This document shows, piece after piece, positions 21,112 to 40,914 of a stretch of DNA of 64,000 nt. A program made the translations under genes and the position numbers. This stretch comes from Flavobacterium sp. KACC 22763 (lineage in GTDB: Bacteria; Bacteroidota; Bacteroidia; Flavobacteriales; Flavobacteriaceae). The stretch covers positions 1,550,001 through 1,614,000 of the forward strand of contig NZ_CP117879.1 in NCBI RefSeq assembly GCF_028736155.1, read 5' to 3'. Numbering within the stretch: the first letter of the stretch is position 1; the number at the start of each line of letters is the position of its first letter. The notes under the pieces are model-generated. The model saw nothing but the letters and a program-made list of their open reading frames with translations. It had not been told where the DNA came from and searched no databases.

Positions 21112-21119
21112 TAAAAGTA
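21112..21119 (-). promoter_or_regulatory. -7 element TACTTTTA of the S37 gene
   Basis: Seven of eight match to TAnnTTTG, 26 nt before the start. It lies exactly 35 bp from the operator repeat, as at the other two regulon promoters. Confidence 0.55.
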
Positions 21120-21146
21120 AGCGCAATATCCAGCAAAAACTGATAT

Positions 21147-21176
21147 TATATTACCCTTAAAATGTAATATTTTATC
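21147..21176. promoter_or_regulatory. Candidate operator (TATATTACC repeat) upstream of the S37 gene
   Basis: TATATTACC at 21147-21155 and TATTTTATC at 21168-21176 (7 of 9) are direct repeats 21 bp apart. The region also contains ATATTAC inverted as GTAATAT (21148-21170). It lies between the divergent S37 and M24 genes. Confidence 0.6.
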
Positions 21177-21293
21177 TAGTTTACATTAACATAGGACAAA
21201 ATAAAAATAATCCTTTAATTTTATTGAAAAATTGAACTTTGCGTCAATTTTATAATTTACACTATAATTAAATACTAACCTAAAAAATAAAAA

Positions 21294-22505
21294 ATGGCAA
21301 TTGGAGTTGGCGGATCAACTATAGATATCGAATTAGGAAAAATACAAAACATGACACTTGATGTTGTACCAATAGCGCTTCCAGAATACAAACAGCGTAT
21401 CAAAAAAGCAGTTTCTTTAATGAAAGAACAAAATTGCAAAGCGCTTTATGTAAATGCTGGAACGAATCTGTATTATTTTACAGGAACAAAATGGAATCCG
21501 TCTGAGCGTATGGTTGGCGCCATAATTCTTGAAGATGAAACGGTTGAATATATTGTTCCAAAATTTGAAGAAGGAACTTTTAAGACTTTCATGAAAATTG
21601 AAGGAAATCTAAATTTCTGGGAAGAACACGAGAGCCCTTCTGAATTGTTTGGCAATATTCTGAAAAATAAAAATATCACTGATGGCAATATTGCGCTGGA
21701 TGAATCGGCTGCTTTTTTTCTAATAGATGCAATCTCAAAAGCGAATTCAAACTTTAGTTTTGTAAATGCTCAACCGATAACAGCAGGTTGCAGAATGCAT
21801 AAGTCAGCAAATGAAATTGCTATTATTCAAAAAGCGAAAGATATTACTATGGTGGTTCAAAAAGCAGCTGCCAGTATATTATATCCGGGCATTCCAGTAA
21901 GTACAGTTGTAGATTTCATTCATAGAGCACATATTAAGGCTGGTATTGCATCTGGTTCTTATTTCTGTATTGTTCTTTTCGGAGAAGATTCTCAGTATCC
22001 GCATGGAGTTACTGCTCCTCAAAATTTAGTTGACAATGATGTAGTTTTGATTGATACAGGATGTCGCTTAGAAGGCTATTTGTCTGATATCACTAGAACT
22101 TATGTATACGGAACTCCAAGTGACGAGCACAGAAAAATATGGAATCTTGAAAAAGCAACTCAAAAAGCAGCTTTTGATGCCGCTCAAATTGGAGCAACAT
22201 GTGGTTCTGTAGATGATGCCGCTCGTAAAGTTTTGGCAGAAGCAGGTTTAAGCGGAGATTACGAAATTCCAGGATTGCCACACCGCGTGGGTCATGGAAC
22301 AGGTTTAGATATTCATGAATATCCATATTTAGTACGAGGAAATCAAACTATCCTGAAAGAAGGAATGGTAGTTAGCAACGAGCCTATGATCTGTATGCCA
22401 GGTCAATTTGGTATTCGTCATGAAGATCATTTTTATATGACGGCTGAAGGTCCAAAATGGTTTACCGAGCCAATGCAGAGCATTGATAATCCGTTCGGTT
22501 TATAA
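21294..22505 (+). CDS. M24-family Xaa-Pro aminopeptidase/creatinase-like protein
   Basis: The protein has 403 aa without a signal peptide. An N-terminal creatinase-like domain (about 20-165) precedes the pita-bread domain. All five metal ligands are visible: Asp254 (LIDTG), Asp265 (SDITR), His334 (GHGTG), Glu363 (NEPM) and Glu377 (RHEDH). It would cleave N-terminal Xaa-Pro bonds in the cytoplasm, feeding proline or hydroxyproline to catabolism. It is divergent from the S37 gene and shares the operator-bearing intergenic region. A creatinase-type activity is the alternative, but the context favours a peptidase. Confidence 0.85.
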   Translation: MAIGVGGSTIDIELGKIQNMTLDVVPIALPEYKQRIKKAVSLMKEQNCKALYVNAGTNLYYFTGTKWNPSERMVGAIILEDETVEYIVPKFEEGTFKTFMKIEGNLNFWEEHESPSELFGNILKNKNITDGNIALDESAAFFLIDAISKANSNFSFVNAQPITAGCRMHKSANEIAIIQKAKDITMVVQKAAASILYPGIPVSTVVDFIHRAHIKAGIASGSYFCIVLFGEDSQYPHGVTAPQNLVDNDVVLIDTGCRLEGYLSDITRTYVYGTPSDEHRKIWNLEKATQKAAFDAAQIGATCGSVDDAARKVLAEAGLSGDYEIPGLPHRVGHGTGLDIHEYPYLVRGNQTILKEGMVVSNEPMICMPGQFGIRHEDHFYMTAEGPKWFTEPMQSIDNPFGL

Positions 22506-22536
22506 GGTTAAAATAATTTTGATTCAATATTTTCAG

Positions 22537-22564
22537 AAGAGCTATTCTATTTAAGATGGCTCTT
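22537..22564 (+). terminator. Terminator of the M24 gene
   Basis: AAGAGC / GCTCTT stem with a 16-nt loop, followed by T7, 32 nt after the stop. Confidence 0.6.
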
Positions 22565-22576
22565 TTTTTATTAGAT

Positions 22577-22845
22577 ATATGTCGATCCTCTGGAGCTTTC
22601 TGATCTTTAATGATGTTTTATTCTATAAATATTATGCTTCTCTGAAGCTTTTGAACATCTGGTGATTCTCTTTGTGTTCCAATGGTTGAAACCATTGGCT
22701 ATGTTTAAATTTAAATTTGATTTTTATTAAATATCCACTCCACTAAAGTTTTTTCTAATATTTTAAATGCTTCGGAGAAGCAAAATATTTATAGAAAAAA
22801 TACAATTTCCAAATATAAAAAAGCCCCGGCGGGCGAAATATTAAA
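22577..22845. repeat. Cluster of dispersed repeat fragments between convergent genes
   Basis: This non-coding stretch holds one arm of the 14.7-kb stem-loop (22577-22598), two copies of the GCTTCGGAGAAGC unit in opposite orientation (22623-22648 inverted, 22769-22794 direct), a copy of the GGTTGAAACCATTGG element (about 22683-22700) also found at 36.8 kb, and a GC-rich CCCCGGCGGG segment (about 22824-22833). Confidence 0.65.
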
Positions 22846-22870
22846 TCATTAATAAAGGGTAAAAAAAATA

Positions 22871-22896
22871 GGGCTGTCCATTTTCGTAGACAGCCC
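22871..22896. terminator. Bidirectional terminator between the M24 and M43 genes
   Basis: Eight-bp stem GGGCTGTC / GACAGCCC with A-run on the left and T-run on the right, so it can act in both directions; the M43 gene ends 27 nt away. Confidence 0.85.
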
Positions 22897-22922
22897 TTTT
22901 TCATTTTTAACTAAATCAACTA

Positions 22923-25900
22923 TTATTCAACCAATAATTTTTTCTTTTCTACAAACTTACCATCTGTAGCCACAACAATATAAACTCCTTTATTTAAATA
23001 TTTAAGAGAATAAACGGTTGTATTATGTATTGTATCTACCAAATGACCTGTGCTGTTGTAAATTGACACTTTAACTTTATTGATATCAATATTTTCAAAA
23101 GTAAAGTTTACAACATCTGAAGCTGGGTTTGGATACATTGTGAATGCCTTTGCCGTATTTGTATTTATGCCTGGCAAACCAGCACTTCCAGATTGTAGAT
23201 CAATTGTATGAGAAGCGCTCCATTCGCTAAAAGCCGTTCCATTTATTGCTCTTACTCTAAATTCATATACGGTTTGAGTTCCTTGTTTCGGAATCCATAA
23301 ATAATATGTTGTAGAAGTTCCTGCGGATGTCCATCCAGAAGAAGTATTCAATTGCACTTCATAAGATGCAGCATCTGTAGATGTTGCCCAAGAAGCATAA
23401 AACCCTGATGAATATACACCTGCATTTCCAAGATTAGCTGGAATTGTTAAAGTTGCTGGATTTGGTGGAACAGAAGTTCCTGCTTGAACCGTATAATCTT
23501 CGATTTCACCATCTCCTAGATTTCCACAAGTTGAAGACGGATTAGCATTATATTTCATCACAACTCTCATTTTAGTAGTACCTGTAAATGACGCAGGTGT
23601 AAAACTTGTAGTTACTGCAGCGTTTGATGAAACATTATTAATTACTCTTTCAGATGCTTCAAACTGATTGTTTTTATTGTAGTCAATCCAAACTCCCCAA
23701 TATTCTGTATAGGCAGAACCACTAAAACCAGGAGTTAAAGTAACGCTTGTATTTGCATTCGGATTCAAAGTAATCACTTTTGAAGTATAATCTGCATAAC
23801 CGTTTGTTTCTTTTCCTGATGCATTTACAAAACTTCCTACTGCTACAGAACTTATATATTCATAACCGTTTGTTCCTTGCGCACTGCATAATGGAGCTGC
23901 AGGAATTGTCACAGTAGCCACATTTGAATAAGCAGAATAATCAGCACCTGATTTTGCTCTAGCTCTATATTTATAAGTGCTGTCGGCAGTTAAACCTGTA
24001 TTGGTATAAGTAGCTACATTGTTAGCTAGTGTCGCAATTTCAGCATAAACATCATCTGAACCTGCTCTTTCGATAATTACATTTGTAGCATTTGTAGCAT
24101 TATTAGTCCAGTTAAGCACAGCTTGTAAATTAGTCACAGTTGCTGTTAAATTTGTTGGAGCCAATACTGTATTTGTTGTTTGCACTCCTGCTAAAATTGG
24201 CTCATTTGGTTTGGTGTTATAAGCATAATCCAACACAGTATACCCTACTCCGCCAGCTTCTACTTTTACATGCATCCATCCGTAGCAAACACGTCCCCTG
24301 CTTGTATATTCAAAACCAACATATCCTGTTTTATTATCCCAATTTGTATAAGTAGCTGTTCTCAAATCTAATTGATTCGGATATGCTCCAGGTGCAGCAA
24401 AATTACTAGAAGCTCCAATAGAAGTACCTTGTGATAAGAAAGATATATTTCTTGTTCCCGCTTCGGAAACCAGTCTTTTTCCGTAAGTTTCTATTTTTAA
24501 AGCTGCGGCCGCATATTGCCATGCTCCATACTCCGTATTGTCTCCAATACCCATATCAAAATACTGCCAAGTTGATGCTGCATTGGCCGTATAATCTGGA
24601 TTGTTTACATAAAACACTCCGTAAGGCGCATCGAATTTTAAATTGATTGTTTTAGTAGCGGTATCCAAAGTCGCTATTCCGCCTGTAATGGCTGCATCTT
24701 TAAACGTAACTGTAATAACAGCATCGTTTGTTGTATTGTGTGCCGTTGCTTTTCCTGTAAAAGAAAGTACCGTTTTAGAATTGCTTTCAAGAGTTAAAAC
24801 AGCGGTTAAACCAGCTGGTACGCCTGTAATTGTATAATCGGTTCCTGCTGTAAAAGTCCCACTGCTTTTTGTAAATGTGCCATTATTAGTGCTCAAAGCA
24901 ATTGTCGCTGTTGAAGTTATGCTTCCGTCATTTACTTCAGCTTCATACAATGTTTCTGGTGATAAAGTTGTTGCCGTTTTATCGGTCATTCCTGTGTAAA
25001 TTGGAGTGTTCGGTTTTGTATTATAAGCATATTCCAAAATTGTATAACCGTCACCATCAGCGTTTACTTTTACTTTAAACCATCCATAACAGGTAAGACC
25101 ATCCATTAAATAATCAAATCCTACATAACCAGTTTTTCCATCCCAAGCTGTATAACTCGCTGTTCTTAAATCCAACTGATTTGGATAAGCACCTGGAGCA
25201 GTCATATTGCTTGTTGGACCAACTGCTGTGTTTGCATTCAATAATGAAATATTTCTAGTACCCGTTTCGCAAACTAGTTTCTTTGCATACGTTTCAATTT
25301 TTAAAGCATTCGCCGCATAACGCCAGCCTCCAAATGCACGATCATCTCCTTTTGCGATTTCAAAATATTTCCATGTCAATGCTGACGAAACCGTAACATC
25401 TGGCATGTCAACAAAGAAGATTCCGTATGGATCTGAGAATTTAAAATTAAAGTATAAAGAAGTACAAGATAAATCAGCTGTTCCGCCTGCAAAAGCTGCT
25501 GGTAAAAAACTAATTCCACCAGATGTATTGTTGCTTAATGCATGATTTGTTGCTTTTCCAGTTAATGTAACTGTAATTTGATTGTTGGAGTTTACAGTAA
25601 GTACAGGTGTAATTCCTGCTGGAAAAGTATGTGTAAAATGAGTTCCTGCTGTCATTGTTCCAGAAGAAACCGCAAAAGTTTTAGTTCCGTTTAATTTGAT
25701 TATGGATGAAGTATCAAAAGAACCGTCATTTACAATCGCTTCTTTAAAAGCTACAGCCGATGCAGTAAGCGTACTTCCTGTTGAATTAACACCTGTATCA
25801 ATTAAGTTTTGTGCTTGCCAAAGAGATTTTCTCGCAGGGTGTTCTAAAGCAGCGAGCATTCTGTCAATCTGACCTTGTGTATACATTTTATAGCAACCTT

Positions 25901-26771
25901 GTGCTCCATTATATCCCATGTAGTTTTCGAAATTTACTTTATCGCCACTGCAATTTGTTCCTGGAGTACAGCCTAAAGTATGTTTTCCGTCTTCCGCAGG
26001 AGTATCAGAAACTTCATCAGTTCCTGTACAACCTCCTTCAAAAGTATGAATCAGATTAAGAAAGTGACCAAATTCGTGAGTAAGCGTTGCTGAGAATTCT
26101 TTGCTATATGAGTTATCATACAAATAAGCTCCGTTGAAAACAACACGAGCTGTATTGTTTGCTGTCATATCTGAACTTGGATACCAAGCCACACCTGAAT
26201 TATTTGTAGCGCCGTCATTATACAAATCATTCTGTATATAGACATTCATATATTTGGTGTTGTCCCAAGCATCAGCTGCAATCTGGTCATCGTAGCCTCC
26301 ACCGTTTCCGTAACCGTTTTTAGTTGGATGGAAAACAACACCTGTCGTACAACCACCATTAGGATCTTTTTTCGCAAGCTTAAATTCAATATTCAGCGTT
26401 CCGCGGCGTGCTTGAAAAAAAGATTCAACGGTCTGATAATCTGCGTTACGCCCATTAAAATCATCATTAAGCTGAGCTAAGTGATTGACAATCTTTTCGT
26501 AGGTTACCGTTTTTCCGCCTTGTACATCACCATAAATATGAAATACTACTGGAATTGTGTAAGTAGTAACTGCAGCCGTTTTTGCTGTAGAAGATTTACG
26601 CTGTGCTGCAAAATTTTTACTGAAAACATCAAAGTTCTTTTTCTCTTGAAGTGCATGAGGGTTATTCCGGTACACTTTTTCATTTTCTTCGCTTGTCCGA
26701 CAAGGCAGACCTTGTGCACTAATTTTCACTGAACTGAAAATCAGAAAGCAGATTAGTAATTTTAATTTCAT
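22923..26771 (-). CDS. Secreted multidomain M43 (pappalysin-like) metalloprotease with T9SS sorting domain
   Basis: The protein has 1282 aa. Signal peptide 1-20; M43-type zinc site HEFGHFLNLIH (232-242) with Met-turn NYMGY (283-287); the usual Gly of HExxHxxGxxH is Asn239. A duplicated module of about 260 residues follows (about 335-595 and 604-862; both copies share APGAYPNQLDLRTA and KTGYVGF). Then come a fibronectin III domain (about 870-950), a GEVED domain (about 957-1090, WIDYNKNNQFE and GEIEDYTV), a second FN3 (about 1100-1190) and a type A T9SS sorting domain (from MYPNPASD, about 1210-1282). It is probably surface-exposed or released and begins protein breakdown for the SusCD and peptidase system upstream. 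Confidence 0.88.
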   Translation of the reverse strand: MKLKLLICFLIFSSVKISAQGLPCRTSEENEKVYRNNPHALQEKKNFDVFSKNFAAQRKSSTAKTAAVTTYTIPVVFHIYGDVQGGKTVTYEKIVNHLAQLNDDFNGRNADYQTVESFFQARRGTLNIEFKLAKKDPNGGCTTGVVFHPTKNGYGNGGGYDDQIAADAWDNTKYMNVYIQNDLYNDGATNNSGVAWYPSSDMTANNTARVVFNGAYLYDNSYSKEFSATLTHEFGHFLNLIHTFEGGCTGTDEVSDTPAEDGKHTLGCTPGTNCSGDKVNFENYMGYNGAQGCYKMYTQGQIDRMLAALEHPARKSLWQAQNLIDTGVNSTGSTLTASAVAFKEAIVNDGSFDTSSIIKLNGTKTFAVSSGTMTAGTHFTHTFPAGITPVLTVNSNNQITVTLTGKATNHALSNNTSGGISFLPAAFAGGTADLSCTSLYFNFKFSDPYGIFFVDMPDVTVSSALTWKYFEIAKGDDRAFGGWRYAANALKIETYAKKLVCETGTRNISLLNANTAVGPTSNMTAPGAYPNQLDLRTASYTAWDGKTGYVGFDYLMDGLTCYGWFKVKVNADGDGYTILEYAYNTKPNTPIYTGMTDKTATTLSPETLYEAEVNDGSITSTATIALSTNNGTFTKSSGTFTAGTDYTITGVPAGLTAVLTLESNSKTVLSFTGKATAHNTTNDAVITVTFKDAAITGGIATLDTATKTINLKFDAPYGVFYVNNPDYTANAASTWQYFDMGIGDNTEYGAWQYAAAALKIETYGKRLVSEAGTRNISFLSQGTSIGASSNFAAPGAYPNQLDLRTATYTNWDNKTGYVGFEYTSRGRVCYGWMHVKVEAGGVGYTVLDYAYNTKPNEPILAGVQTTNTVLAPTNLTATVTNLQAVLNWTNNATNATNVIIERAGSDDVYAEIATLANNVATYTNTGLTADSTYKYRARAKSGADYSAYSNVATVTIPAAPLCSAQGTNGYEYISSVAVGSFVNASGKETNGYADYTSKVITLNPNANTSVTLTPGFSGSAYTEYWGVWIDYNKNNQFEASERVINNVSSNAAVTTSFTPASFTGTTKMRVVMKYNANPSSTCGNLGDGEIEDYTVQAGTSVPPNPATLTIPANLGNAGVYSSGFYASWATSTDAASYEVQLNTSSGWTSAGTSTTYYLWIPKQGTQTVYEFRVRAINGTAFSEWSASHTIDLQSGSAGLPGINTNTAKAFTMYPNPASDVVNFTFENIDINKVKVSIYNSTGHLVDTIHNTTVYSLKYLNKGVYIVVATDGKFVEKKKLLVE

Positions 26772-26990
26772 TTGTTTAGGTTTTTCATTAGTAATTGATC
26801 AAAATTACCGCAGAAGCTTCTATCTTTCTGATAGTATTTTATTCAGAATTAATACATAATTATCATATTTTTAACCATAAAAAAACACATAATCAAAAAA
26901 TACTTATAATAAAATATTAAAATCAAAAACCAATCGACTTAACTAAAAAACATCCGTCATCCCTTACAAATACTATAAAACAAAAAAAAA

Positions 26991-27038: not shown

Positions 27039-28499
27039 TTAAAATTTGTCCCAAAAAATCTTCGTTGTCATTAAATCTCCCCCTATTGCTGTTGAAGCTG
27101 CTTCATAATTAGCTGCATTCAACGTTTTATCTGATGTGGAATAAATATTTCTAACTGGAACTTTACCATTTGCTTCTTGCACCGCTGTTGGAGGCGCTAC
27201 CAGTATAGGATAATCTAACCTTCTGTATTCAGTCCAAGCTTCAAAACCACGATTGTAGTAAGCGATCCAAAGCTGGTAGGCAATTTTTTGCTTGTCTGTT
27301 CCTGTTGCTGTAGCAAAAGCAACATCAGGACGTGCTAAATAAGTTTGGATATTCGCATCAGAAACTCCCCAAAATTTCATGCTAGCTTCTATTCCTTTTG
27401 CATAATAGGTTGCAGCATCAGCCCCTACACTAAAGCCTCGGCTTGCCGCATCTGCCAGTAAAAAACAGGTTTCTGTATAATCGAATATAACTCCTGGATT
27501 TGTTTCCTTTCTCAACCTGAGTCCTGTATTTGAATAATCTACATATTTAACTAGCTGAGCATATGGAGCACCTTTGTATTTACCGTTTATTTTTGAAGCC
27601 GGATCAAAGAAAATATCACGTCTTGGATCTTCTTTTGCATTTAATTCATTAACAAAAAACTCTGCTATGTTAATTTGGCTACTATTTACCAAACTATCAT
27701 ATAACGGATTCATATCTATTACTGACGAATAATACTGAAACAAAGCCGTATCTGCCTCTTTGCTCATTACCCCAGAACTATAAGCGCTTTCTACCATAGC
27801 TTTTGCTCTTGCAGGATCGACATCAGCAAGATGCAAACCCATTTTTAGTTTTACGCTATTTGCCAATACTTTCCATTTAGCAACATTTCCTTGAAAAACT
27901 AAATCTGCTTTTTTATCAAAACTTGCGTTTGCGGTATCTAAATTTGCAATAGCTACATCCAAACGGGAAGCTAAATCCAAATAGATTGTTTTAGCATCGT
28001 CATATTTTGGAAGAGGGAACTTTTTAATATCTAAAGCTTCGGTATACGCTACATTTCCAAACAAATCAACCAATGTCTGATACGTCATTACAATTTGTAC
28101 CTCAAGAATTGCCAACTGATTTTTTTGCACCGCTTCTTCTACTGGACCTAATGCTTTTATTTCTTTGATTTGTTTTTGCGCATTTGATAAATCCTGTAAT
28201 ACATCTCTATAAAGCAATACAGCATGATTGCTTCCTAGATTTCTTTTTGCCTGATTGTAATTAGCTTCATCTGTATAAGTCGAAGTCGACCAATGTTGAA
28301 CATAAGCTCTGAAATTGTTCGAATTAACAGAAGCATTAGTCAAGAAATAAGCATAATTTACTTGAGCACTAGTCATTAATGCTGCGGGTACCGCTGTTTC
28401 ATAACCTTTTTTGTCCTGATTCATATTGTCCAGGTTATCGCATGAAGCTATTGTACATAGAATAGCTCCAGCAAAAAATATTGTTTTTATAATTCTCAT
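27039..28499 (-). CDS. SusD/RagB-family surface nutrient-binding lipoprotein (peptide locus)
   Basis: The protein has 486 aa. It begins with a lipoprotein signal (lipobox ending ASC, Cys about 20). The helical SusD core with TPR-like repeats is seen in the N-terminal half (NQLAILEVQIVMTYQTLVDLFGNVAYTEAL) and the conserved YNRGFEAWTEYRRLDYP near the C-terminus. It forms the lid of the SusC channel downstream-coded pair. Given neighbours it likely binds oligopeptides, as RagB does in Porphyromonas, and not glycans. It starts 11 nt after the SusC stop. Confidence 0.9.
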   Translation of the reverse strand: MRIIKTIFFAGAILCTIASCDNLDNMNQDKKGYETAVPAALMTSAQVNYAYFLTNASVNSNNFRAYVQHWSTSTYTDEANYNQAKRNLGSNHAVLLYRDVLQDLSNAQKQIKEIKALGPVEEAVQKNQLAILEVQIVMTYQTLVDLFGNVAYTEALDIKKFPLPKYDDAKTIYLDLASRLDVAIANLDTANASFDKKADLVFQGNVAKWKVLANSVKLKMGLHLADVDPARAKAMVESAYSSGVMSKEADTALFQYYSSVIDMNPLYDSLVNSSQINIAEFFVNELNAKEDPRRDIFFDPASKINGKYKGAPYAQLVKYVDYSNTGLRLRKETNPGVIFDYTETCFLLADAASRGFSVGADAATYYAKGIEASMKFWGVSDANIQTYLARPDVAFATATGTDKQKIAYQLWIAYYNRGFEAWTEYRRLDYPILVAPPTAVQEANGKVPVRNIYSTSDKTLNAANYEAASTAIGGDLMTTKIFWDKF

Positions 28500-31741: not shown

Positions 31742-31749
31742 CAAATATT
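31742..31749 (-). promoter_or_regulatory. -7 element AATATTTG of susC 1
   Basis: Seven of eight match to TAnnTTTG, 25 nt before the start codon and exactly 35 bp from the first operator repeat. Confidence 0.55.
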
Positions 31750-31776
31750 TTGCTTTTTAGATAATTTTTCTGATAA

Positions 31777-31848
31777 TATATTACCGAAAAACCTGCTTAT
31801 ATTACCCTATAAATATCAATTTCGCAATTACACATTTACTATATTACC
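31777..31848. promoter_or_regulatory. Candidate operator: three TATATTACC direct repeats upstream of susC 1
   Basis: Identical 9-mers at 31777-31785, 31798-31806 and 31840-31848 are spaced by 21 and 42 bp, i.e. two and four helical turns, so they lie on one face of the DNA just upstream of the -33 position. Confidence 0.72.
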
Positions 31849-31964: not shown

Positions 31965-34121
31965 TTATTTTGCTCCTGGCGGGCAATTTTTTTCAATAAA
32001 TCTGACAAAAGTATCTACTAGATGTTTTTCTGTTCCTTCTCCTTCATCAATACTATGAGAACGGTTTGGATAAATCATTAAATCAAACATTTTATCGTAT
32101 TTGATTAATTCGTTTATTAAAACTTCTGCATTCTTATAATGTACATTATCATCGCCTGTTCCGTGAATATATAGTAAATTTCCTTTCAGATTTTTAGCAT
32201 GTGTTACAGGAGAAGCCTGAATATAAGCTGCCTGATTTTCGTCTGGCAATCCCATATAGCGCTCTGTATAGATATTATCATAAAAATGCTGATCTGTTAC
32301 TGCTGCAATCGCAATTCCAGTTTTGTAGATTTCTGGATACTGAAACATTAAGTTTAAAGTTACTGCTCCACCGCCGCTCCAGCCATGAATCGCCACACGA
32401 TCAGAATCGATGAAGTTCCATTTTAAAACTTCTTTGGCTGCCATTGCCTGATCACGCGTATTGATAATCCCGATATTTTTGTAAATAGATTTTCTCCATT
32501 GTGTTCCTTTCATTACAGGAGTTCCTCTATTATCCATAGCAATTCCGATATATCCTTTTGGAATCAATTCAGCGATAAAACCATTAAAATACGGTTTGTC
32601 ATTGGCTACTGAAGCCATCGGTTCTCCATAAACATAGAAGAAAACAGGATATTTTTTTGAAGGATCAAAATCCAATGGTTTTGCCATTACACCATCAATT
32701 TCAACTCCATCTTCAGTTTTTACTTTAAACTTCTCCATTGAATAATTTCGTCTTGGAGCCACAAAAACATCTGCTTCTTTTGGATAAATCTTTTGATGCC
32801 CCGACAAGGCAATCAACCTCTGATTGTAATCTCTCGAAATGCTAGAATTGGTATGTCTTGCATAAGCTGCATCTGTAGAAAAAACATATCGGTTTGTACC
32901 GTCAAAAATTGCTGGAGTTATTCTTTTTGTTTTTTTCGAACTTAAATTTGTTTCATACAAGTAACGCTGAGTAGCATCTTCTGGACTAGCAATAAAATAT
33001 ATTGTTTTGGTCTTTTCATTATAGGCTTTAAAATAAGCATCAAAATTAGTTTTAGTGATTAACTCTTTTGATTTTCCGTCAAGGCTTATTTTGTAAATAT
33101 GCATCCATCCGTCTGCGTCAGAACTCCATAAAAAGGCTTTTCCGTTGTCTACAAACTGACAAGGAAAAACGTCATATTCACCAGCAGAAGTATCAAACAC
33201 GTCAATCCATGCTTTTGATTCTTCTTTATAAATCACTCTCGCTGCACCCGATTTTGCATTGCAATCGTACATCGTAACCTGATTCTGGTTTCTATTTAAC
33301 TGAACTACCATAATAGATTCATTGCTAAGCCATTTCATTCGAACCAAATAATTATTATCTGGTTCTCCAGGAATATTTAACCAATTGGTTTGAAGAGAAT
33401 CAATATTTACAATTCCGATTTTTACAGAAGAAGGTTTATCTCCAGCTTTTGGATATTCCACAGGAATAATTGTCGGATATAACGAATCTGTATTATTGAT
33501 CATGAAATGGAATTTGGTAGATGTAGCATCTACTCTCCAAAAAGCAATGCTTTTTCCGTCTGGACTCCATCTGAATCCGTCACGAGCAGCTAGTTCTTCT
33601 TCATAAACCCAATCAAAAGTTCCGTTAATAATTTTATCTGTACCGTCTGTAGTTACTGGCGTAATTTTTCCAGAATTCAGATTTTCAACATATATGTTGT
33701 GTTTTGAAACGTAGGCAACATTTTCATTATCGCTAGAAAACTTAGCAAACATTAAAGATGACGCATCCAAGTTTTTGCCTAATTGTTTTCCTTTTCCTGT
33801 GGCCAAATCAAAATACCAATAATCACCTCTAGTATTGTCTCTCCAAACTTTCTTAGAATTTGTATAGACTAATACTTTTGTTTTTGAATCGTTCCAAACC
33901 AATTGTTCAATTTCGCCTGTAAATCCAGCAGCAGCTAATTGTGCTTTTGATAAAATAGTGTTTTGTTTATCTAGCTTATCAACATCATAAACGACCACGT
34001 TACTGTCTTGATTCACCCAAAAAGAATGAGAATTTGGCAACCAATTTAGATTGTTAATATCAATCTTCTGTGCGAAAACAGATGTACATATAAACAGTAC
34101 CAACAACAAATATTTTCTCAT
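31965..34121 (-). CDS. Dipeptidyl peptidase IV-like S9 prolyl peptidase
   Basis: The protein has 718 aa. Signal peptide 1-17. An N-terminal eight-bladed beta-propeller (about 30-460) contains DWVYEEE (170-176), the Glu pair that in DPP IV binds the substrate N-terminus. The catalytic domain has Ser582 (GWSGGGA, where GWSYGGY is usual), Asp657/658 (HGTGDDNVH) and His689 (RSHSI). It removes Xaa-Pro (possibly Xaa-Hyp) dipeptides in the periplasm. It is last in the hydroxyproline operon, 1 nt after the aminopeptidase P gene, and supplies dipeptides for that enzyme. Confidence 0.9.
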   Translation of the reverse strand: MRKYLLLVLFICTSVFAQKIDINNLNWLPNSHSFWVNQDSNVVVYDVDKLDKQNTILSKAQLAAAGFTGEIEQLVWNDSKTKVLVYTNSKKVWRDNTRGDYWYFDLATGKGKQLGKNLDASSLMFAKFSSDNENVAYVSKHNIYVENLNSGKITPVTTDGTDKIINGTFDWVYEEELAARDGFRWSPDGKSIAFWRVDATSTKFHFMINNTDSLYPTIIPVEYPKAGDKPSSVKIGIVNIDSLQTNWLNIPGEPDNNYLVRMKWLSNESIMVVQLNRNQNQVTMYDCNAKSGAARVIYKEESKAWIDVFDTSAGEYDVFPCQFVDNGKAFLWSSDADGWMHIYKISLDGKSKELITKTNFDAYFKAYNEKTKTIYFIASPEDATQRYLYETNLSSKKTKRITPAIFDGTNRYVFSTDAAYARHTNSSISRDYNQRLIALSGHQKIYPKEADVFVAPRRNYSMEKFKVKTEDGVEIDGVMAKPLDFDPSKKYPVFFYVYGEPMASVANDKPYFNGFIAELIPKGYIGIAMDNRGTPVMKGTQWRKSIYKNIGIINTRDQAMAAKEVLKWNFIDSDRVAIHGWSGGGAVTLNLMFQYPEIYKTGIAIAAVTDQHFYDNIYTERYMGLPDENQAAYIQASPVTHAKNLKGNLLYIHGTGDDNVHYKNAEVLINELIKYDKMFDLMIYPNRSHSIDEGEGTEKHLVDTFVRFIEKNCPPGAK

Positions 34122-34122: not shown

Positions 34123-35424
34123 TTATCCTTTTTTATTTTTAATTAAATTTTCAATTTCGGCAATTTCAATAGGCATAGCTTCACTCAGATTGATATTTCC
34201 ATTTTCTGTTATCAGATAATCATTTTCCAAACGGCATCCTATTCCTTCTTCTCTAATGTAAATTCCAGGTTCGCAAGTAAGCACCATTCCCTTTTCAAAA
34301 GGTCTTGAATACAAACCAACATCATGAACATCAAGTCCTAAATGATGCGCAGTTCCATGCATGAAATATTTCTTGTAAGCAGGTTTTTCTGGATCTTGAG
34401 ATTTAATTTCTTCTTCAGTAATTAATCCTAATTTTACCAATTCAGCTTCAATTAATTTAGCCATTTGAAGTTCATAATCTTTCGATAAAACTCCAGGCTT
34501 TAGTAATTTAGAACCTTCTTTCAAACAATGCAAAACAGATTCGTAAACCTCTTTTTGCCTAGGACTGAAAGTTCCGTTAACCGGAATACATCTTGTGGTA
34601 TCTGAATTATAGTTGGCATAACAGCTTCCAAAATCGAGAAGAACCATTTCATTCTCTTCGCAAATATCATCATTAGTATTATAATGCAATGAGCATGCAT
34701 TTCCACCAGAGGCTATAATTGATTTAAAAGCTTGTCTTGTTCCTCCATTTTTTACGGTAGCGTACAACAACTCGGCCTCTAATTCATATTCGTTTATATT
34801 AGGACGAATGGTATTTAAAATTCTATGAAAACCTTCAACACTTATTGCTGTTGCTTTTTTAATTAAATCAACTTCCTCGTTCGATTTAATTGGACGCAAT
34901 TCGCGCGTTATTTTTGCCACACGCTCGTATTGATGCAATGGATACTTTTCTTTGCACCATTTAATCATTCGGTCTTGTCTGGTTTCCATTTCAGCCGTTA
35001 CCCTTTTGATATGCTCATTGTGACCTAAATAAAAAACATCTGATTCAAAGGCAAAAAGCTGTAAAGCCTTCTCAAACTCATGAATCCATTTGATATTTTT
35101 GATTCCAGAAATAGCCGTGGCCTGTTCTTTGGTTAAAAAATCACCGTCCCAAGTCAGCGTATGTTCATTTGCTTCTTTTACAAAAAGTATAGCTCTGTTT
35201 TCTTCTTTAAAAGCATCTGGATAAAGCACCAGAATAGTTTCATCCTGATCAATACCAGACAGATAAAACAAATCATTATTTTGAGCAAAACCCATAACAT
35301 CATCAGCGTTATTAGGCATTACGTCATTTGAAGTTAAAATGGCCAAACTATTTGGCAGCATTTTTTCGGTAAATCTTTTTCGGTTTTCTATAAACAAAGA
35401 AACCGGAATCTGGTTGTATCTCAT
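34123..35424 (-). CDS. Aminopeptidase P-type M24 Xaa-Pro aminopeptidase
   Basis: The protein has 433 aa and is cytoplasmic. An AMP_N domain (about 1-150) precedes the pita-bread fold. Metal ligands are Asp264 (LLDFG), Asp275 (SDTTR), His360 (HGTAHHLGLDVHD), Glu385 (CEPG) and Glu400 (RLENDYLIT), the full aminopeptidase P set. It frees the N-terminal residue before proline. It lies between the D-hydroxyproline oxidoreductase (3 nt) and the DPP IV-like gene (1 nt), so peptide breakdown and hydroxyproline oxidation are translated from one message. Confidence 0.9.
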   Translation of the reverse strand: MRYNQIPVSLFIENRKRFTEKMLPNSLAILTSNDVMPNNADDVMGFAQNNDLFYLSGIDQDETILVLYPDAFKEENRAILFVKEANEHTLTWDGDFLTKEQATAISGIKNIKWIHEFEKALQLFAFESDVFYLGHNEHIKRVTAEMETRQDRMIKWCKEKYPLHQYERVAKITRELRPIKSNEEVDLIKKATAISVEGFHRILNTIRPNINEYELEAELLYATVKNGGTRQAFKSIIASGGNACSLHYNTNDDICEENEMVLLDFGSCYANYNSDTTRCIPVNGTFSPRQKEVYESVLHCLKEGSKLLKPGVLSKDYELQMAKLIEAELVKLGLITEEEIKSQDPEKPAYKKYFMHGTAHHLGLDVHDVGLYSRPFEKGMVLTCEPGIYIREEGIGCRLENDYLITENGNINLSEAMPIEIAEIENLIKNKKG

Positions 35425-35427
35425 ATT

Positions 35428-36663
35428 TTATATTTGGAATCTGTCAATAGCTACAGAAGTCGGTTTTCCAGAAATAATTTCTGTTATGATTTTTCCTGTT
35501 GCCGGTGCGAGACTTAATCCCATCATGGCATGTCCTGTTGCTAAGGTCAAATTTACGATTTTTTTGTCTCTAGCAATAATTGGCATTCCGGATGGCGTGC
35601 ATGGTCTAAACCCAAACCAAGTGTCTTCTGTTTTTGGCATTTCCACTTTCATGTCAGGATAAAAATCATTGATGCTATTTATAATTCCTTGAAGCCTGTT
35701 TGCGTTTATTTTATTGTCTTTGGTGTGTGTTATTTCCATAGTTCCTCCAAATCTAATATCATTTGCCATTGGAGTTACGGCCACTTTTCCTTCGCATAAA
35801 ATAGATGGAATACTTGGTTTTTGGGATTTATCTTTTAAAGTAAAACTGTATCCTTTTCCTGGTAAAATAGAAATTGAGATATTTAATTTTTTAGCCAAAA
35901 AAGGACTCCAAGATCCTGATGCCAAAACCACTTCGTCAGTTCTAAAAAGCCCTTTATCGGTAACAATTTTTTCAATTTTATTTCCTTCTAAAACAAAATC
36001 TTTAACGCTGGTTTGTGAGTGGATTTCGACTTTTAAACGAGATAATTCCTCTTTGATAAAAGCCATAAATTTTTGCGGATACAAATGAGCATCACTTTTA
36101 TAATGAACTCCCCCAATTACATTGGTATTGGTTCCTTTTTCTAAAAGTGCCACTTCAGATTTTGAGAGATAATCTACTTCAAGTCCTAGACGTTCTGCTT
36201 CTTTTCCTTCGTGATGCATTTCTTCTCCTACTTTATCACTTTTATAAAGCATTAAAAGTCCTTTTTCTTCATAAAAGAAAGAATTATTCTCTTTGGCAAA
36301 ATCCTGATATAATTCTTTACTTAATAAAGATAGGTCACGTAAAGCAGGCATCGCATTTTCTACATGGCGTAAATTGGCATGTTTATAAAACTGCATTCCC
36401 CAGTTTATTAAATCTTTGCTTAAACGCGGTTTTACATAAAATGGACTACGGCTGTCAAACATCCATTTTATTCCTTGAGCAATCATACCCGGCTGTGCCA
36501 GCGGAATAATGTGTGATGGTACAATCATACCTGCGTTTCCATACGAACAGCCATTGCTCATATCAGATTCATCAAATACACTCACCTCGTAACCTTCCTT
36601 TGCAAGATAATAGGCAGAACATAAGCCAATAATTCCACCGCCGATAACAGCAACTTTTTTCAT
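35428..36663 (-). CDS. FAD-dependent D-amino acid oxidoreductase, likely cis-4-hydroxy-D-proline dehydrogenase
   Basis: The protein has 411 aa. The FAD motif GGGIIGLCSAYYLAKEG begins at residue 8, and the DAO/DadA pattern recurs near the C-terminus (FGFRPCTPSGMPII, ATGHAMMGLSLAPATGK). DadA-like enzymes next to hydroxyproline 2-epimerase genes oxidise cis-4-hydroxy-D-proline to 1-pyrroline-4-hydroxy-2-carboxylate. The other three pathway enzymes are all here, which supports the assignment. General D-amino acid dehydrogenase activity is the alternative. A 454-bp repeat-bearing gap separates it from the epimerase gene, so a second promoter is possible. Confidence 0.82.
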   Translation of the reverse strand: MKKVAVIGGGIIGLCSAYYLAKEGYEVSVFDESDMSNGCSYGNAGMIVPSHIIPLAQPGMIAQGIKWMFDSRSPFYVKPRLSKDLINWGMQFYKHANLRHVENAMPALRDLSLLSKELYQDFAKENNSFFYEEKGLLMLYKSDKVGEEMHHEGKEAERLGLEVDYLSKSEVALLEKGTNTNVIGGVHYKSDAHLYPQKFMAFIKEELSRLKVEIHSQTSVKDFVLEGNKIEKIVTDKGLFRTDEVVLASGSWSPFLAKKLNISISILPGKGYSFTLKDKSQKPSIPSILCEGKVAVTPMANDIRFGGTMEITHTKDNKINANRLQGIINSINDFYPDMKVEMPKTEDTWFGFRPCTPSGMPIIARDKKIVNLTLATGHAMMGLSLAPATGKIITEIISGKPTSVAIDRFQI

Positions 36664-36796
36664 AAATTTTATTTCGTTAAGAGTTCTTTGAACTACTAAT
36701 TATATTTTAAATCTGTTGGATTAGATTATATGTTTCATTAAGCTAAAACCAATTGCCTTGGACTTTGCTTATCAATTATTTTTTTGACTCCGTTTT

Positions 36797-36882: not shown

Positions 36883-36958
36883 AATATTATTTATTCTATG
36901 CTCAAATCTGAAATCAAAAATCTCTTAACTTAAGACATTGATCTTTAGATAGTAATTA

Positions 36959-37031
36959 AAATTGTAAAAGATGGTTTTAGCTTAAACAACAACCATGTTA
37001 ATTTGGCTAAAGCCCATCTTATTTACAATTT
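36959..37031. repeat. Large imperfect hairpin, intergenic
   Basis: AAATTGTAAAAGATGG-TTTTAGC pairs with GCTAAA-GCCCATCTTATTTACAATTT across about 24 nt. Together with the previous repeat it fills the 36664-37117 gap; no gene or promoter was seen there. Confidence 0.55.
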
Positions 37032-37117
37032 CTAAAATCCCATAGTTAAAACTAGAGACTATTCAAAAAACAATAATATAATTTAACCAACAGCTTAATT
37101 ATATTATAAACTGATTT

Positions 37118-38128
37118 TTAAATAACCTGAAATCCAAATGCATATGGATCGTCGCTTTCATCAATTATAATATTATTATATCCGTATACTTTTGCCCATC
37201 CTTGAATGCTTGGAACAATAGCTGGAATATCTCCGATAGAAGTTTCTTCTACGACTTTTCCAATAAACTTACTTCCAATATAACTTTCGTGAATAAACTC
37301 TTCTCCTTTTTTCAATTTTCCTTTAGCGTGCAATTGTGCCATTCGGGCTGATGTACCCGTTCCACATGGTGAACGGTCGATTGCTTTGTCACCATAAAAA
37401 ACAGCATTTCTGCCAGATGATGTTGAGTCAATAGGCGATCCTGTCCATAACATATGTGATACATCTCGAATTGTATCATTCTCTGGGTGGATGAAATAAT
37501 CTGGATATTTTTCGTTAATTTTTTTACGCACTTCCTGACTATACTGAACAATTTTACTTGCTGTAAAATCCTGAACACCAGAAAAATTCTTTTGCGGATC
37601 GACAATGGCATAGTAATTTCCTCCGTAAGCCACATCAAAAACAATTTCGCCCAATTCTGGACAATCAATAGTAAGTCCTTCTGCCGCTAGATACGATTTA
37701 ACGTTGGTCAGACGTACCCAATCTACCTTTTTGCCTGTTTGTTGATATTCGATGTGCACTAAACCTGCAGGCGCTTCCATTTTAATAATTCCAGGAACTT
37801 TTGGAGTCACCAAACCTTCTTCGACAGCAATTGTAATAGTTCCAATTGTTCCGTGTCCGCACATTGGCAGACAGCCAGAAGTTTCAATAAACAAAATTCC
37901 AAAATCATTATCAGGATTACTTGGCGGATACAAAATGCTTCCGCTCATCATATCGTGCCCTCTTGGTTCAAACATTAATCCTTTACGAATCCAATCATAT
38001 TCTTTTAAGAAATGCTGCCGTTTTTCGCTCATCGAATTGCCTTGTAGATTTGGTCCGCCACCGGCAACAACCCTAACTGGATTCCCGCACGTATGAGCAT
38101 CTACGCAAAAAAAAGTTTTCTTTACCAT
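37118..38128 (-). CDS. 4-hydroxyproline 2-epimerase (proline racemase family)
   Basis: The protein has 336 aa, the family's length. Both catalytic cysteines are present: Cys90 in CLPMCGHGTIG and Cys255 in RSPCGTGTSA; a Cys at the second site with the MCGH context is typical of hydroxyproline epimerases and proline racemases, while 3-hydroxyproline dehydratases have Thr there. It converts trans-4-hydroxy-L-proline to cis-4-hydroxy-D-proline. It starts 1 nt after the aldehyde dehydrogenase stop. Confidence 0.9.
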   Translation of the reverse strand: MVKKTFFCVDAHTCGNPVRVVAGGGPNLQGNSMSEKRQHFLKEYDWIRKGLMFEPRGHDMMSGSILYPPSNPDNDFGILFIETSGCLPMCGHGTIGTITIAVEEGLVTPKVPGIIKMEAPAGLVHIEYQQTGKKVDWVRLTNVKSYLAAEGLTIDCPELGEIVFDVAYGGNYYAIVDPQKNFSGVQDFTASKIVQYSQEVRKKINEKYPDYFIHPENDTIRDVSHMLWTGSPIDSTSSGRNAVFYGDKAIDRSPCGTGTSARMAQLHAKGKLKKGEEFIHESYIGSKFIGKVVEETSIGDIPAIVPSIQGWAKVYGYNNIIIDESDDPYAFGFQVI

Positions 38129-38129
38129 T

Positions 38130-39713
38130 TTATATTTGAGATAGTGTTAGTTTATTATTTACTGTACGAACAATTTGCAGCGGATTCTCGTTTTGTAATT
38201 CAGCTGGCAGCAAATGATCTGGCCAATTCTGAAAACTTACTGGACGCACCCATCTATACACTGCATCTATACCAACTGCTGTGTAACGTGAATCTGAAGA
38301 TGCAGGATAAGGTCCTCCGTGAAGCATAGAAGCACAAACTTCTACACCTGTAGGAACACCATTATAGATCAAACGACCTACACGATTCTGTAAAGCACCA
38401 ATTATTCCTTTATGAGATTCAATTTCGTTCTCCTCACTTATGATTGTTCCTGTCAGCTGTCCTTCAAGCTTAGAAATTACCTCTATTAATTCAGCTTCAT
38501 TTTCGCATTCAATTAAAATAGAAAATGGTCCAAAAACTTCATTGTGCAATACTGCATTTTTTAAAAATTCTTTTCCATCAACTTTTAAGACAGTTGAAGC
38601 ACCGTGATTTGGTGTTGTCTCTCCTTTAAATTGCGCTATTCTTGAAACTCCATTCTGCTCTTCTATTTTTGCAATTCCGTTATTAAAATCAGCATAAATA
38701 GAAGGGTGCAGCATACAGCCTGGCTGAATTTTTTCGATTGCCTGATCCAACTTTTCAGTAAAATCATTTAATTCTTCTCCTTTCAAAGCAAGCAATAACC
38801 CTGGATTCGTACAAAATTGCCCAGCTCCCAAAGTAATAGAACCCGCATAAGCCGTTGCCCATTTTTGGCTATTTTTTTTCAAAGCATTAGGCAATAATAC
38901 CACTGGATTAATACTTCCCATTTCGGCAAATACTGGAATTGGTTCTGGGCGCTGTGCAGCTAAATCGCACAAAGCTCGTCCGCCTTTAATGCTTCCTGTA
39001 AAACCAACTCCTTTTACCAATGGATGTTTTACCAAACTTGTCCCAAGCGTTCTTCCATCACCTATAAGGTTAGAAAAAACACCCTCTGGCATATTAGTTT
39101 TCTTAGCCGCTTTTATGATTGCCGAAGCAACCATTTCGCCTGTTCCTATATGCATAGAGTGGCTTTTTACAATAACTGGACAACCCGCAGCCAAAGCTGA
39201 AGCTGTATCTCCTCCGCTTGTAGAGAATGCAAAAGGAAAGTTACTTGATCCAAAAACCACAATTGGTCCTAGAGGTGTTAACATTTTGCGTAAATCTTCT
39301 TTTGGCGCAGGCTGTCTGTCAATTATTGCTGTATCTATTGTAGCTTGCACCCAGCTTCCTTCTGTAAGCATATCGGCAAAAGCTTTCAACTGGCCGATTG
39401 TTCTTCCGCGTTCTCCTTCTGCTCTACCTCTCGGATAACCCGATTCGGTGCAATATTGAACTAAAAGATCATCTCCTAATGCTAAAATTTCATCTGCAAT
39501 AGCGTTTAAAAATTTAGCTTTTTCAATACCAGAATAATTTTTATAACTCGCAAATGCTTGATTGGCTAGCGCAACCGCTTCTTCAATTTCATCTTGAGTT
39601 GCCTCTGTAAAAACCCATGGATTTTCTGTATTCAATAGCGGATTAAACGTTTTTAGTATTTTTGTACCGCCTGCTTTTAGCTGGCTTCCTATATAATTTT
39701 TTCCTGTAATCAT
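38130..39713 (-). CDS. Aldehyde dehydrogenase, likely 2-oxoglutarate semialdehyde (2,5-dioxovalerate) dehydrogenase
   Basis: The protein has 527 aa, in the KGSADH-like length range. Catalytic Cys301 (GAGQFCTNPG) and Glu264 (FAEMGSINP) are present, with the NAD-binding FTGSIKGG at about 238-245. The GQFCTNPG form is the one seen in 2-oxoglutarate-semialdehyde dehydrogenases of hydroxyproline and sugar-acid pathways. It would oxidise the product of the DHDPS-like deaminase to 2-oxoglutarate. It is adjacent to the epimerase (1 nt). Confidence 0.88.
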   Translation of the reverse strand: MITGKNYIGSQLKAGGTKILKTFNPLLNTENPWVFTEATQDEIEEAVALANQAFASYKNYSGIEKAKFLNAIADEILALGDDLLVQYCTESGYPRGRAEGERGRTIGQLKAFADMLTEGSWVQATIDTAIIDRQPAPKEDLRKMLTPLGPIVVFGSSNFPFAFSTSGGDTASALAAGCPVIVKSHSMHIGTGEMVASAIIKAAKKTNMPEGVFSNLIGDGRTLGTSLVKHPLVKGVGFTGSIKGGRALCDLAAQRPEPIPVFAEMGSINPVVLLPNALKKNSQKWATAYAGSITLGAGQFCTNPGLLLALKGEELNDFTEKLDQAIEKIQPGCMLHPSIYADFNNGIAKIEEQNGVSRIAQFKGETTPNHGASTVLKVDGKEFLKNAVLHNEVFGPFSILIECENEAELIEVISKLEGQLTGTIISEENEIESHKGIIGALQNRVGRLIYNGVPTGVEVCASMLHGGPYPASSDSRYTAVGIDAVYRWVRPVSFQNWPDHLLPAELQNENPLQIVRTVNNKLTLSQI

Positions 39714-39912
39714 GTTTTTTTCTTATAAATGAATTAAATGCCATTGTAGTTTTCAGCCACGATTTTAGTCTCAAGTTTCAGTCGCAGCCCCAGTAAACGC
39801 AGTAACCGAAAACCCTGACTGTAAATGGAAACTGAAAAACTGAGACTGCGACTGAAAGCTGAGAACCGAGACTGAAAACTAAAAAAGCAAAGCCAATCTT
39901 TTAAATATGCTA
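39714..39912. repeat. Intergenic purine-rich ACTGAAA-type repeat
   Basis: About 39,755-39,880 holds degenerate CTGAGACTG / ACTGAAAAC units in both orientations (GTTTCAGTCGCAG against CTGCGACTGAAAG), forming an imperfect inverted repeat. No ORF. Confidence 0.45.
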
Positions 39913-40827
39913 TTATAAATTTTTATAATCTGGTAAAGTTGGTCTTGTGCGCAATCCTTCAGCAATAATCGCTAAAACTCTTTCTCTTTCTGCTCCTTGC
40001 AATGGTAATCTTGGCGCACGAACATATTCTGAACCAATTCCTGTTGCAACTTCTGCCAATTTAATATTCTGAACTAAAAATGCATTAATATCCAATTCTA
40101 ATAAAGGTAAGAACCATCTATAGATTTTCAACGCTTCATCAAATCTTCCCGCTTTTGCCAATTTGTAAATTGCCACTGTTTCTTCAGGGAAAGCGCAAAC
40201 CAATCCAGAAACCCATCCATCAGAACCCATAAATAAGCTTTCTAATGCTAATGTGTCTACTCCTGATAATATTTTTAAACGATCTCCAAAGCGGTTGATC
40301 ATTCTAGTTACGTTAGAGATATCTCTAGTTGATTCTTTTACTGCTTGAATGTTATCGTATTTTAATAATTCTTCAAACATATCTAGAGTAACTTCAATTT
40401 TATAGTCGACTGGATTGTTGTAAACCATAATAGGAAGAGAAGTGTTTTTTGCCACTTCACTATAAAAAGTAACCGTTTCAAAATCAGATGCTTTGTAACG
40501 CATTGGAGGAAGCATCATTAATCCTTTTGCTCCATCTTGTTCAGCTTTATTAGCGGCCAAAATTGCATTTTTTGTAGACTGCTCTGCAATGTTCATAATT
40601 ACAGGCACTTTATTTTCTGTTAGTGCAACAGTATGTTTTACTAATTCTCTTTTTTCCTCCTCTAAAAGCGTACTGGCTTCACCTAAAGTCCCTCCTAAAA
40701 TAATTCCTGAAACTCCAGCATTTAATTGTGCCTTCATATTAACTTCAAACATATTGAAGTCTAATTTGTCATCTGCAGTAAATTTTGTAGTTACCGCTGG
40801 CATAACGCCATTCCATTGAATACTCAT
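39913..40827 (-). CDS. DHDPS/NAL-family lyase, likely 1-pyrroline-4-hydroxy-2-carboxylate deaminase
   Basis: The protein has 304 aa. Schiff-base Lys164 (IQAVKEST) and Tyr136 (IMVYNNP) are present, with GGTLGEAST in place of the GTTGE phosphate/carboxylate loop. DHDPS-like proteins in hydroxyproline clusters deaminate 1-pyrroline-4-hydroxy-2-carboxylate to 2,5-dioxovalerate. A true DapA role is unlikely, as dapA would be elsewhere with lysine genes. It is the first gene of the operon, divergent from the AraC regulator, behind a -7 element and the 21-bp repeat operator. Confidence 0.85.
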   Translation of the reverse strand: MSIQWNGVMPAVTTKFTADDKLDFNMFEVNMKAQLNAGVSGIILGGTLGEASTLLEEEKRELVKHTVALTENKVPVIMNIAEQSTKNAILAANKAEQDGAKGLMMLPPMRYKASDFETVTFYSEVAKNTSLPIMVYNNPVDYKIEVTLDMFEELLKYDNIQAVKESTRDISNVTRMINRFGDRLKILSGVDTLALESLFMGSDGWVSGLVCAFPEETVAIYKLAKAGRFDEALKIYRWFLPLLELDINAFLVQNIKLAEVATGIGSEYVRAPRLPLQGAERERVLAIIAEGLRTRPTLPDYKNL

Positions 40828-40849
40828 AATTTTAATTTTTTATTAAGGC

Positions 40850-40857
40850 CAAAATTA
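40850..40857 (-). promoter_or_regulatory. -7 element TAATTTTG of the hydroxyproline operon
   Basis: Perfect TAnnTTTG match 23 nt before the start codon; no -33 TTG, which fits an activator-dependent promoter. Confidence 0.6.
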
Positions 40858-40884
40858 TCTAGAAACAACAGAGCGCACCCTTTA

Positions 40885-40914
40885 AAAATTACCACAAAAT
40901 GATACTATATTACC
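40885..40914. promoter_or_regulatory. Candidate operator: AAAATTACC / TATATTACC, 21-bp direct repeat
   Basis: 9-mers at 40885-40893 and 40906-40914 are spaced by 21 bp. The first begins exactly 35 bp from the start of the -7 element. The region lies between the operon and the divergent AraC gene. Confidence 0.68.

Follow-up and report, generated by a model that had tools for sequence, protein, structure and literature searches.

A direct-repeat operator shared by hydroxyproline and peptide-use promoters of Flavobacterium sp. KACC 22763, predicted to bind an AraC-type regulator

What are the regularly spaced short repeats that stand ahead of a hydroxyproline operon, a susC gene and an S37-family peptidase gene in Flavobacterium sp. 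KACC 22763? They lie in a stretch of 64,000 nucleotides (positions 1,550,001 to 1,614,000 of contig NZ_CP117879.1), hereafter the window. An original prediction, made from the letters alone, took them for the operator of an AraC-type activator bound next to the -33 position, defining a regulon across 20 kb. Conservation across flavobacterial genera supports such a shared operator and local regulon, and it is very probable, as far as comparison of sequences can tell, that the repeats serve as operator for the AraC-type product of gene 41007-41852, which would bind direct repeats as a dimer and control a hydroxyproline-peptide regulon by class II activation. The elements of the operator are:

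40900..40914, minus strand: distal half-site of the hydroxyproline operon promoter, GGTAATATAGTATCA (direct reading; footprint in 66 relatives)
40879..40893, minus strand: proximal half-site of the hydroxyproline operon, GGTAATTTTTAAAGG, 21 bp downstream of the distal one (footprint)
40850..40857, minus strand: -7 box of the hydroxyproline operon, TAATTTTG, at +36 from the proximal half-site
31834..31848, minus strand: accessory half-site of the susC promoter, lying 42 bp upstream of its distal half-site (in-frame copy in 16/27 relatives)
31792..31806, minus strand: distal half-site of the susC promoter, GGTAATATAAGCAGG
31771..31785, minus strand: proximal half-site of the susC promoter, GGTAATATATTATCA
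31742..31749, minus strand: -7 box of susC, AATATTTG, at +36
26850..26864, minus strand: distal half-site of the M43 metalloprotease promoter, GATAATTATGTATTA (matrix match; missed by the original prediction)
26829..26843, minus strand: proximal half-site of the M43 promoter, AATAAAATACTATCA
26800..26807, minus strand: -7 box of the M43 gene, TAATTTTG, at +36
21162..21176, minus strand: distal half-site of the S37 peptidase promoter, GATAAAATATTACAT
21141..21155, minus strand: proximal half-site of the S37 promoter, GGTAATATAATATCA
21112..21119, minus strand: -7 box of the S37 gene, TACTTTTA, at +36

At each promoter tested, two half-sites of the same orientation stand 21 bp apart. Written in the direction of the gene, the operator reads GRTAATATAnTATYA, followed 21 bp downstream by a G-N-TAA half-site and, 36 bp after the start of this second half-site, by TAnnTTTG. 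The original prediction had described the repeats as seven copies of one 9-mer. Five of them (21147, 31777, 31798, 31840 and 40906) are indeed exact copies of TATATTACC; the other two, AAAATTACC at 40885 and TATTTTATC at 21168, each depart from it by two mismatches. The spacings it gave (21, 21+42 and 21 bp) are right by direct reading, and so is the distance of 35 bp from 9-mer to left edge of the -7 box, which amounts to 36 bp at operon, susC and S37 gene alike when one counts from where the proximal half-site begins (its first G) up to the T of TA in the box. A TAnnTTTG-like box is present at all three places, 23, 25 and 26 nt from the start codon respectively, as had been claimed; an exact TAnnTTTG is found at the operon only (TAATTTTG, against AATATTTG at susC and TACTTTTA at the S37 gene). 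The single 9-mer does not survive as the defining unit: with at most one mismatch it occurs 23 times in the window for 17.5 expected, which is no enrichment, and the 5.56-Mb single-contig genome holds 31 exact copies, 5 of them within these 20 kb. Read along the gene, the strong copies at 21155, 31785 and 40914 have the longer form GGTAATATAnTATCA. At the S37 gene and susC the proximal half-site is the strongest, at the hydroxyproline operon the distal one. Because the strongest half-site switches in this way, the constant unit is the pair together with its distance to the -7 box.

Is this unit conserved? The region between operon and araC was compared in 66 non-redundant upstream regions, drawn from 101 loci of several flavobacterial genera with an AraC protein more than 50% identical (a named and a genus set of loci were merged, and some genomes stood in both before redundancy was removed). 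In 66/66 the distal half-site carries G (position 0) and TA (positions 2-3), an invariance that is partly built in, as this half-site was chosen as the best match to the consensus. The proximal half-site, which played no part in the choice, has G at +21 in 62/66 and TA at +23/24 in 66/66, and information falls off outside both. When an exact TAnnTTTG was searched from +10 to +80, it appeared at +36 in 46 of the 66 regions and at +37 in 9; it stood at +45 in one and was missing in 10. In five of these ten (L103, L109, L110, L117, L118) the neighbour is a DHDPS-family gene and the box, at +36/37, departs from TAnnTTTG by one mismatch. The other five (L100, L102, L112, L113, L116), and L105 with its box at +45, have a neighbour gene that is not of the DHDPS type: in four Leeuwenhoekiella loci it is an arabinofuranosidase-like gene (Pfam on L102 only), and in two Galbibacter loci an S9-like gene, where a second element, some 116 bp farther along, is followed by TAGTTTTA at +36. 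Where the neighbour gene is another one, the operator element is still found beside the AraC gene. As a side observation, the Leeuwenhoekiella proteins (L102, L105, L113, L116) are 56-58% identical to ours and adjoin arabinofuranosidase-type instead of hydroxyproline genes, with the operator kept.

The layout of class II activation is found in the sequence, with the proximal site in the place of the -33 element and a fixed distance (+36/37) to the -7 box in 55/66 regions. The -33 element is expected 20-26 bp ahead of the -7 box. The original prediction had seen no -33 TTG at the operon and susC promoters, and conservation agrees, since a TTG starting 20-26 bp ahead of TA is present in 1/55 promoters (3 more have it at 19 bp, and 2 at 27). 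A missing -33 TTG, together with half-sites upstream of the -7 box, fits the need for an activator. Some AraC-family proteins do repress, and the third half-site upstream of susC could permit looping, so that one might think of a repressor or of a dual regulator; with half-sites that stand upstream of the -7 box and leave it uncovered, this appears very improbable.

We then have to ask whether such sites are rare. A composite site was defined as a matrix score of at least 10 with at least 5/6 matches to TAnnTTTG at +36/37, the matrix being trained on 59 operon sites from relatives with less than 95% AraC identity (7 of the 66 sites were omitted as too close to the window). The window contains exactly four (hydroxyproline operon, susC, S37 and M43) for 0.026 expected under a second-order Markov model, or 0.009 in its intergenic part; these expectations derive from simulated sequence, 10 Mb of which gave 2 (whole) and 7 (intergenic) sites. 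The matrix ranks the operon, S37, M43 and susC sites of the window at the top. Orthologues of the operon site were used in training, which leaves the other three as independent finds. The geometry claimed for three promoters holds at all three, and the count grows by one, the promoter of the M43 gene (26800-26864) having escaped the original prediction.

The complete genome was searched by pattern, the matrix being applied to the window and to fetched loci. With zero mismatch the grammar pattern occurs four times: at the S37 gene, at the hydroxyproline operon, at an operon beside a paralogous AraC gene, and at 2293608, a match adjoining short unnamed open reading frames that we take as chance. 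In this strict form the motif is not equally common elsewhere, contrary to what would have spoken against a regulon. With one mismatch the pattern is near background (22 matches, 15 for the reversed pattern); it finds susC and not M43, hence it cannot be used to list the regulon. The long half-site GRTAATATANTATYA occurs exactly four times in the genome, at the three promoters first noted and at a place 508 bp past the end of the window; with one mismatch it too approaches background (34 for 24 reversed). Chance in AT-rich DNA is ruled out by conservation and by the composite count.

The place past the window end is conserved; having no -7 box at +36, it was not counted as a target. There, at genome positions 1614508-1614522 and 1614355-1614369 (locus L207, G000:C1:1612000-1624000), we observed GATAATATAGTATCA without mismatch, together with GCTAATATG and GGTAATAAAATATCA at a distance of 63 bp from each other. 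These elements lie upstream of a GH36 gene (61792-63996) and of a divergent susC, and are kept in four relatives with diverged flanks, the box at +36 being absent.

If the repeats belong to one regulator, they should be met where its gene is met. A total of 121 Flavobacterium genomes was scanned with GRTAATATAN12GNTAATWT, AraC being scored as present at 54% identity or more. The pair was found in 15/21 AraC-bearing genomes (29 matches), as against 10/100 of those lacking AraC (10 matches), and the reversed pattern gave 6 and 7 matches, respectively. The pair tracks the presence of the araC gene, and is at background level in members of the genus without it. The S37 gene was likewise present in 13/21 AraC-bearing genomes and in 1 of the 67 AraC-lacking genomes searched (of 100), this lone match having 35% identity. 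Here an account without any dedicated regulator can be weighed, in which phased AT-rich repeats would be an intrinsic promoter feature, curved DNA or an UP-like element: the half-sites are indeed AT-rich and two helical turns apart. Against it, information is highest at the two G's, next at the TAA cores, and not in A-tracts, and the strict pattern has few matches in the genome and follows the presence of one regulator gene, which leaves this account exceedingly improbable.

The other promoters tell a similar story in relatives. At susC the pair is present in 27/27 non-redundant relatives, and in 24/27, as scored, the -7 box at +36 matches at 5/6 or better (L067 and L074 were scored in a shifted frame and are otherwise in register; the box of L065 is 4/6); 16/27 also retain the third half-site, which lies 41-42 bp ahead of the distal one. 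The S37 site is found at 15/16 genes, window included, in frames chosen with the -7 box as part of the score. At the M43 promoter, which the matrix revealed, the site is present in 11/13 loci, window included, the scoring placing the box at +36 in ten, and the frame of L204 being read by eye. In F. columnare and F. davisii an S37 gene lies directly downstream of araC, with the same operator grammar. The araC locus is also present in F. johnsoniae strain CI04. In other clades this grammar precedes an M1-type peptidase gene (seven of loci L080-L088; Pfam on L080), or genes for other S9 peptidases and another SusC (L091-L106, L112, L114; Pfam on the S9 protein of L092). Peptide use is the theme common to these targets across clades, the Leeuwenhoekiella arabinofuranosidase being the exception; one may speculate that plant hydroxyproline-rich glycoproteins, with their arabinose, provide the link.

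Might another regulator be the main binder of what would still be an AraC-type operator, be it an AraC paralogue or a hybrid two-component system? In the same genome the AraC protein at the altronate dehydratase locus (33% identical) has GATAATTAAAGATTA-N6-GATAATATTA with TAATTTTA at +36, kept in two relatives, and the AraC protein of L228, which resembles that of L037, has a weaker upstream composite, GAGAATATAGCATAT-N6-GAAAATATAG with TAACTTTG at +36. Such like sites favour the idea. It is made unlikely by the place of the pair beside the araC gene itself (62/66 loci by the strict G at +21, 66/66 by the TA core), by its background level in members of the genus without that gene, and by the upstream regions of AraC-type genes in this genome, where 61 HTH_18 matches led to 30 loci fetched and 27 scored (three starts being too near the locus edge), then to 24 judged after exclusion of L216, L221 and L236, long proteins with their true start outside the locus: the composite is present in 3/24, those of araC 41007-41852, of the altronate locus and of L228. 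A general rule of 21 and 36 bp for all AraC proteins of the genome was accordingly not found in the 24 regions judged. We also noted that at L206 (3517-6233) the AraC paralogue is divergent to altronate dehydratase, with the same 21/36 geometry.

In other genomes AraC proteins some 36-37% identical (L030-L032, L034, L037) show the same distances, and among 10 AraC-type loci compared, L030, L034 and others of which had been selected by matrix score, eight have the geometry (L030-L032, L034, L035, L037, L038, L208) and two do not (L033, L036). The AraC proteins that share the motif are alike around both recognition helices, where most others in the alignment differ (judged by eye, unscored). It is quite possible, and we propose it tentatively, that there is a flavobacterial clade of one-component AraC proteins with one operator code, made of a G-N-TAA half-site, a 21-bp repeat and a second copy 36 bp before TAnnTTTG, the members of which would keep the code and change ligand or target (hydroxyproline peptides, altronate, perhaps arabinofuranosides). 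If this is true, the substrates of many AraC proteins not yet studied could be deduced from promoters, and it should be possible to measure cross-talk among paralogues.

Several observations weigh against assigning the operator to the AraC protein of the window, with its fixed geometry. The element nearest to araC has no TAnnTTTG at +36/+37 in the four Leeuwenhoekiella and two Galbibacter loci. Six of the 21 AraC-bearing genomes lack a strict pair match. In the AraC-bearing genome G056 the second of two tandem S37 genes has no site, the first copy having it, and two M43 genes have none either, one of them following an S9 gene in the same direction. For the M1-peptidase targets, offset 27 is level with 37 (5/7 each), in spectra that are not independent, as rows with a matrix score below 18 were pre-filtered for a -7 box at +35 to +38. 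The protein L212 of our genome has similar recognition helices and no composite. Finally, related AraC proteins in the same genome have similar sites, so that more than one could bind.

The regulator and the genes that the operator would control are:

41007..41852, plus strand: AraC-type regulator, 281 aa, proposed activator (HTH_18, AraC_binding), reading away from the operon
39913..40827, minus strand: DHDPS-family protein, presumed pyrroline-4-hydroxy-2-carboxylate deaminase (Pfam; role from context)
38130..39713, minus strand: aldehyde dehydrogenase, presumed 2-oxoglutarate semialdehyde dehydrogenase (role inferred)
37118..38128, minus strand: 4-hydroxyproline epimerase (NF010578, 591 bits, cut-off 376)
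35428..36663, minus strand: presumed FAD-dependent D-amino-acid (hydroxyproline) oxidoreductase (PF01266)
34123..35424, minus strand: Xaa-Pro aminopeptidase-like M24 peptidase (PF05195, PF00557)
31965..34121, minus strand: S9 dipeptidyl-peptidase-like protein (PF00930, PF00326)
28511..31717, minus strand: SusC/RagA transporter (TIGR04056)
27039..28499, minus strand: SusD-like lipoprotein (PF12771)
22923..26771, minus strand: M43 metalloprotease with a secretion-system C-terminal sorting domain (PF05572, PF18962)
19806..21086, minus strand: S37-family peptidase (PF05576)

The AraC protein has the double helix-turn-helix of the AraC/XylS family (HTH_18, 70.2 bits for a cut-off of 33.6, positions 1-79 of 80) and an N-terminal ligand-binding cupin domain (PF02311, 24.8 bits for 21.1; Cupin_2, at 25.2 bits, is under its cut-off of 27.2). 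Among the matches listed, the epimerase is the only one of the four catabolic enzymes at a curated equivalog cut-off; oxidase, deaminase and semialdehyde dehydrogenase fall in the DAO, DHDPS and Aldedh superfamilies, with no model at cut-off among the best 25/53, 7/7 and 25/38 matches, respectively, and their presumed roles come from family and context.

How might the system work? The predicted binder, as a dimer, would occupy two direct half-sites on the same face of DNA, 21 bp being two helical turns. If the -7 box stands at -12 to -5, as in the start-site map of F. psychrophilum (PMC9723704), the half-sites would begin near -48 and -69 from the transcription starts so inferred. The proximal subunit would then end where sigma region 4 would contact the -33 element, and replace this missing element. 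Hydroxyproline or a breakdown product is probably the ligand, held in the cupin-like N-terminal domain, and the bound dimer would recruit RNA polymerase as a class II activator, an effect predicted, like the extent of the operon, from the sequence. The regulon would join the secreted M43 protease, peptide import by SusCD, proline-specific peptidases and hydroxyproline catabolism, the S37 peptidase from its own promoter, the S9 and M24 genes further down the hydroxyproline cluster.

Other features surround these genes. At 40977-40984, TATATTTG stands 30 nt ahead of araC and may be its own -7 box; a TAnnTTTG is found 18-45 nt from the araC start in 29/66 relatives. A second M24 peptidase gene (21294-22505), divergent to the S37 gene, has its intergenic region in common with the S37 operator, with no composite on the M24 strand. 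Between araC and the GH36 gene, 42195-60959 is a cluster of glycosidase, SusCD and FecR-sigma genes, including three GH35-domain genes (one fused to GH43) and one GH2 gene. In four relatives the coordinates put some 2.5-2.8 kb between the end of araC and the start region of GH36, a sign that the cluster may have been inserted in this genome.

The meaning of this organization is a prediction at the level of a transcription factor, whereby external proteolysis, peptide import by SusCD and hydroxyproline catabolism are joined in flavobacteria, a chemistry that the use of collagen, or of hydroxyproline-rich proteins from plants, requires. Because the distance to the -7 box is rigid, the regulon can be read from flavobacterial genomes, and the geometry between activator and sigma can be tested cleanly in a phylum whose promoter is unusual.

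Similar arrangements are known. At araI1-I2, E. coli AraC binds two direct half-sites 21 bp apart, the proximal one adjoining -35; sequence, sigma factor and promoter boxes differ from those of the flavobacterial operator. F. psychrophilum up-regulates a collagenase along with a SusCD pair, and the sections of the paper used here name no regulator (PMC9723704). Among the matches listed in the open-licence literature, no description of a hydroxyproline-peptide regulon was found, and the relevant parts of PMC11253607 and PMC12125979 have nothing on a 21-bp spacing in Bacteroidota. LhpR of Pseudomonas aeruginosa, likened here by description, is an AraC-family activator of hydroxyproline (lhp) genes, as cited in PMC6608401, where the portion consulted mentions neither SusCD nor a secreted protease for it. 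In B. thetaiotaomicron, according to the sections used of PMC3878776, hybrid two-component systems have an AraC-type DNA-binding domain, direct repeats averaging 21 bp and control of SusCD; they are membrane sensor kinases for glycans, whereas we have here a one-component protein of 281 aa beside amino-acid catabolism. Comparable in spacing are the AraC-family RhaR regulators of Bacteroides, Bacillales and Enterococcus, also devoted to a catabolic pathway, with a predicted 21-bp direct-repeat operator; their substrate is another one, and no distance to a -7 box is stated in the part of the work concerned (PMC3870299). The RhaR of B. thetaiotaomicron has a single target operon in the passages at hand (PMC3878776), as against at least four promoters here. 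A 21-bp direct-repeat operator had, then, already been predicted for AraC-type regulators of Bacteroides; the regulon, the rigid link to the -7 box and the sharing of the operator with some paralogous AraC proteins are new.

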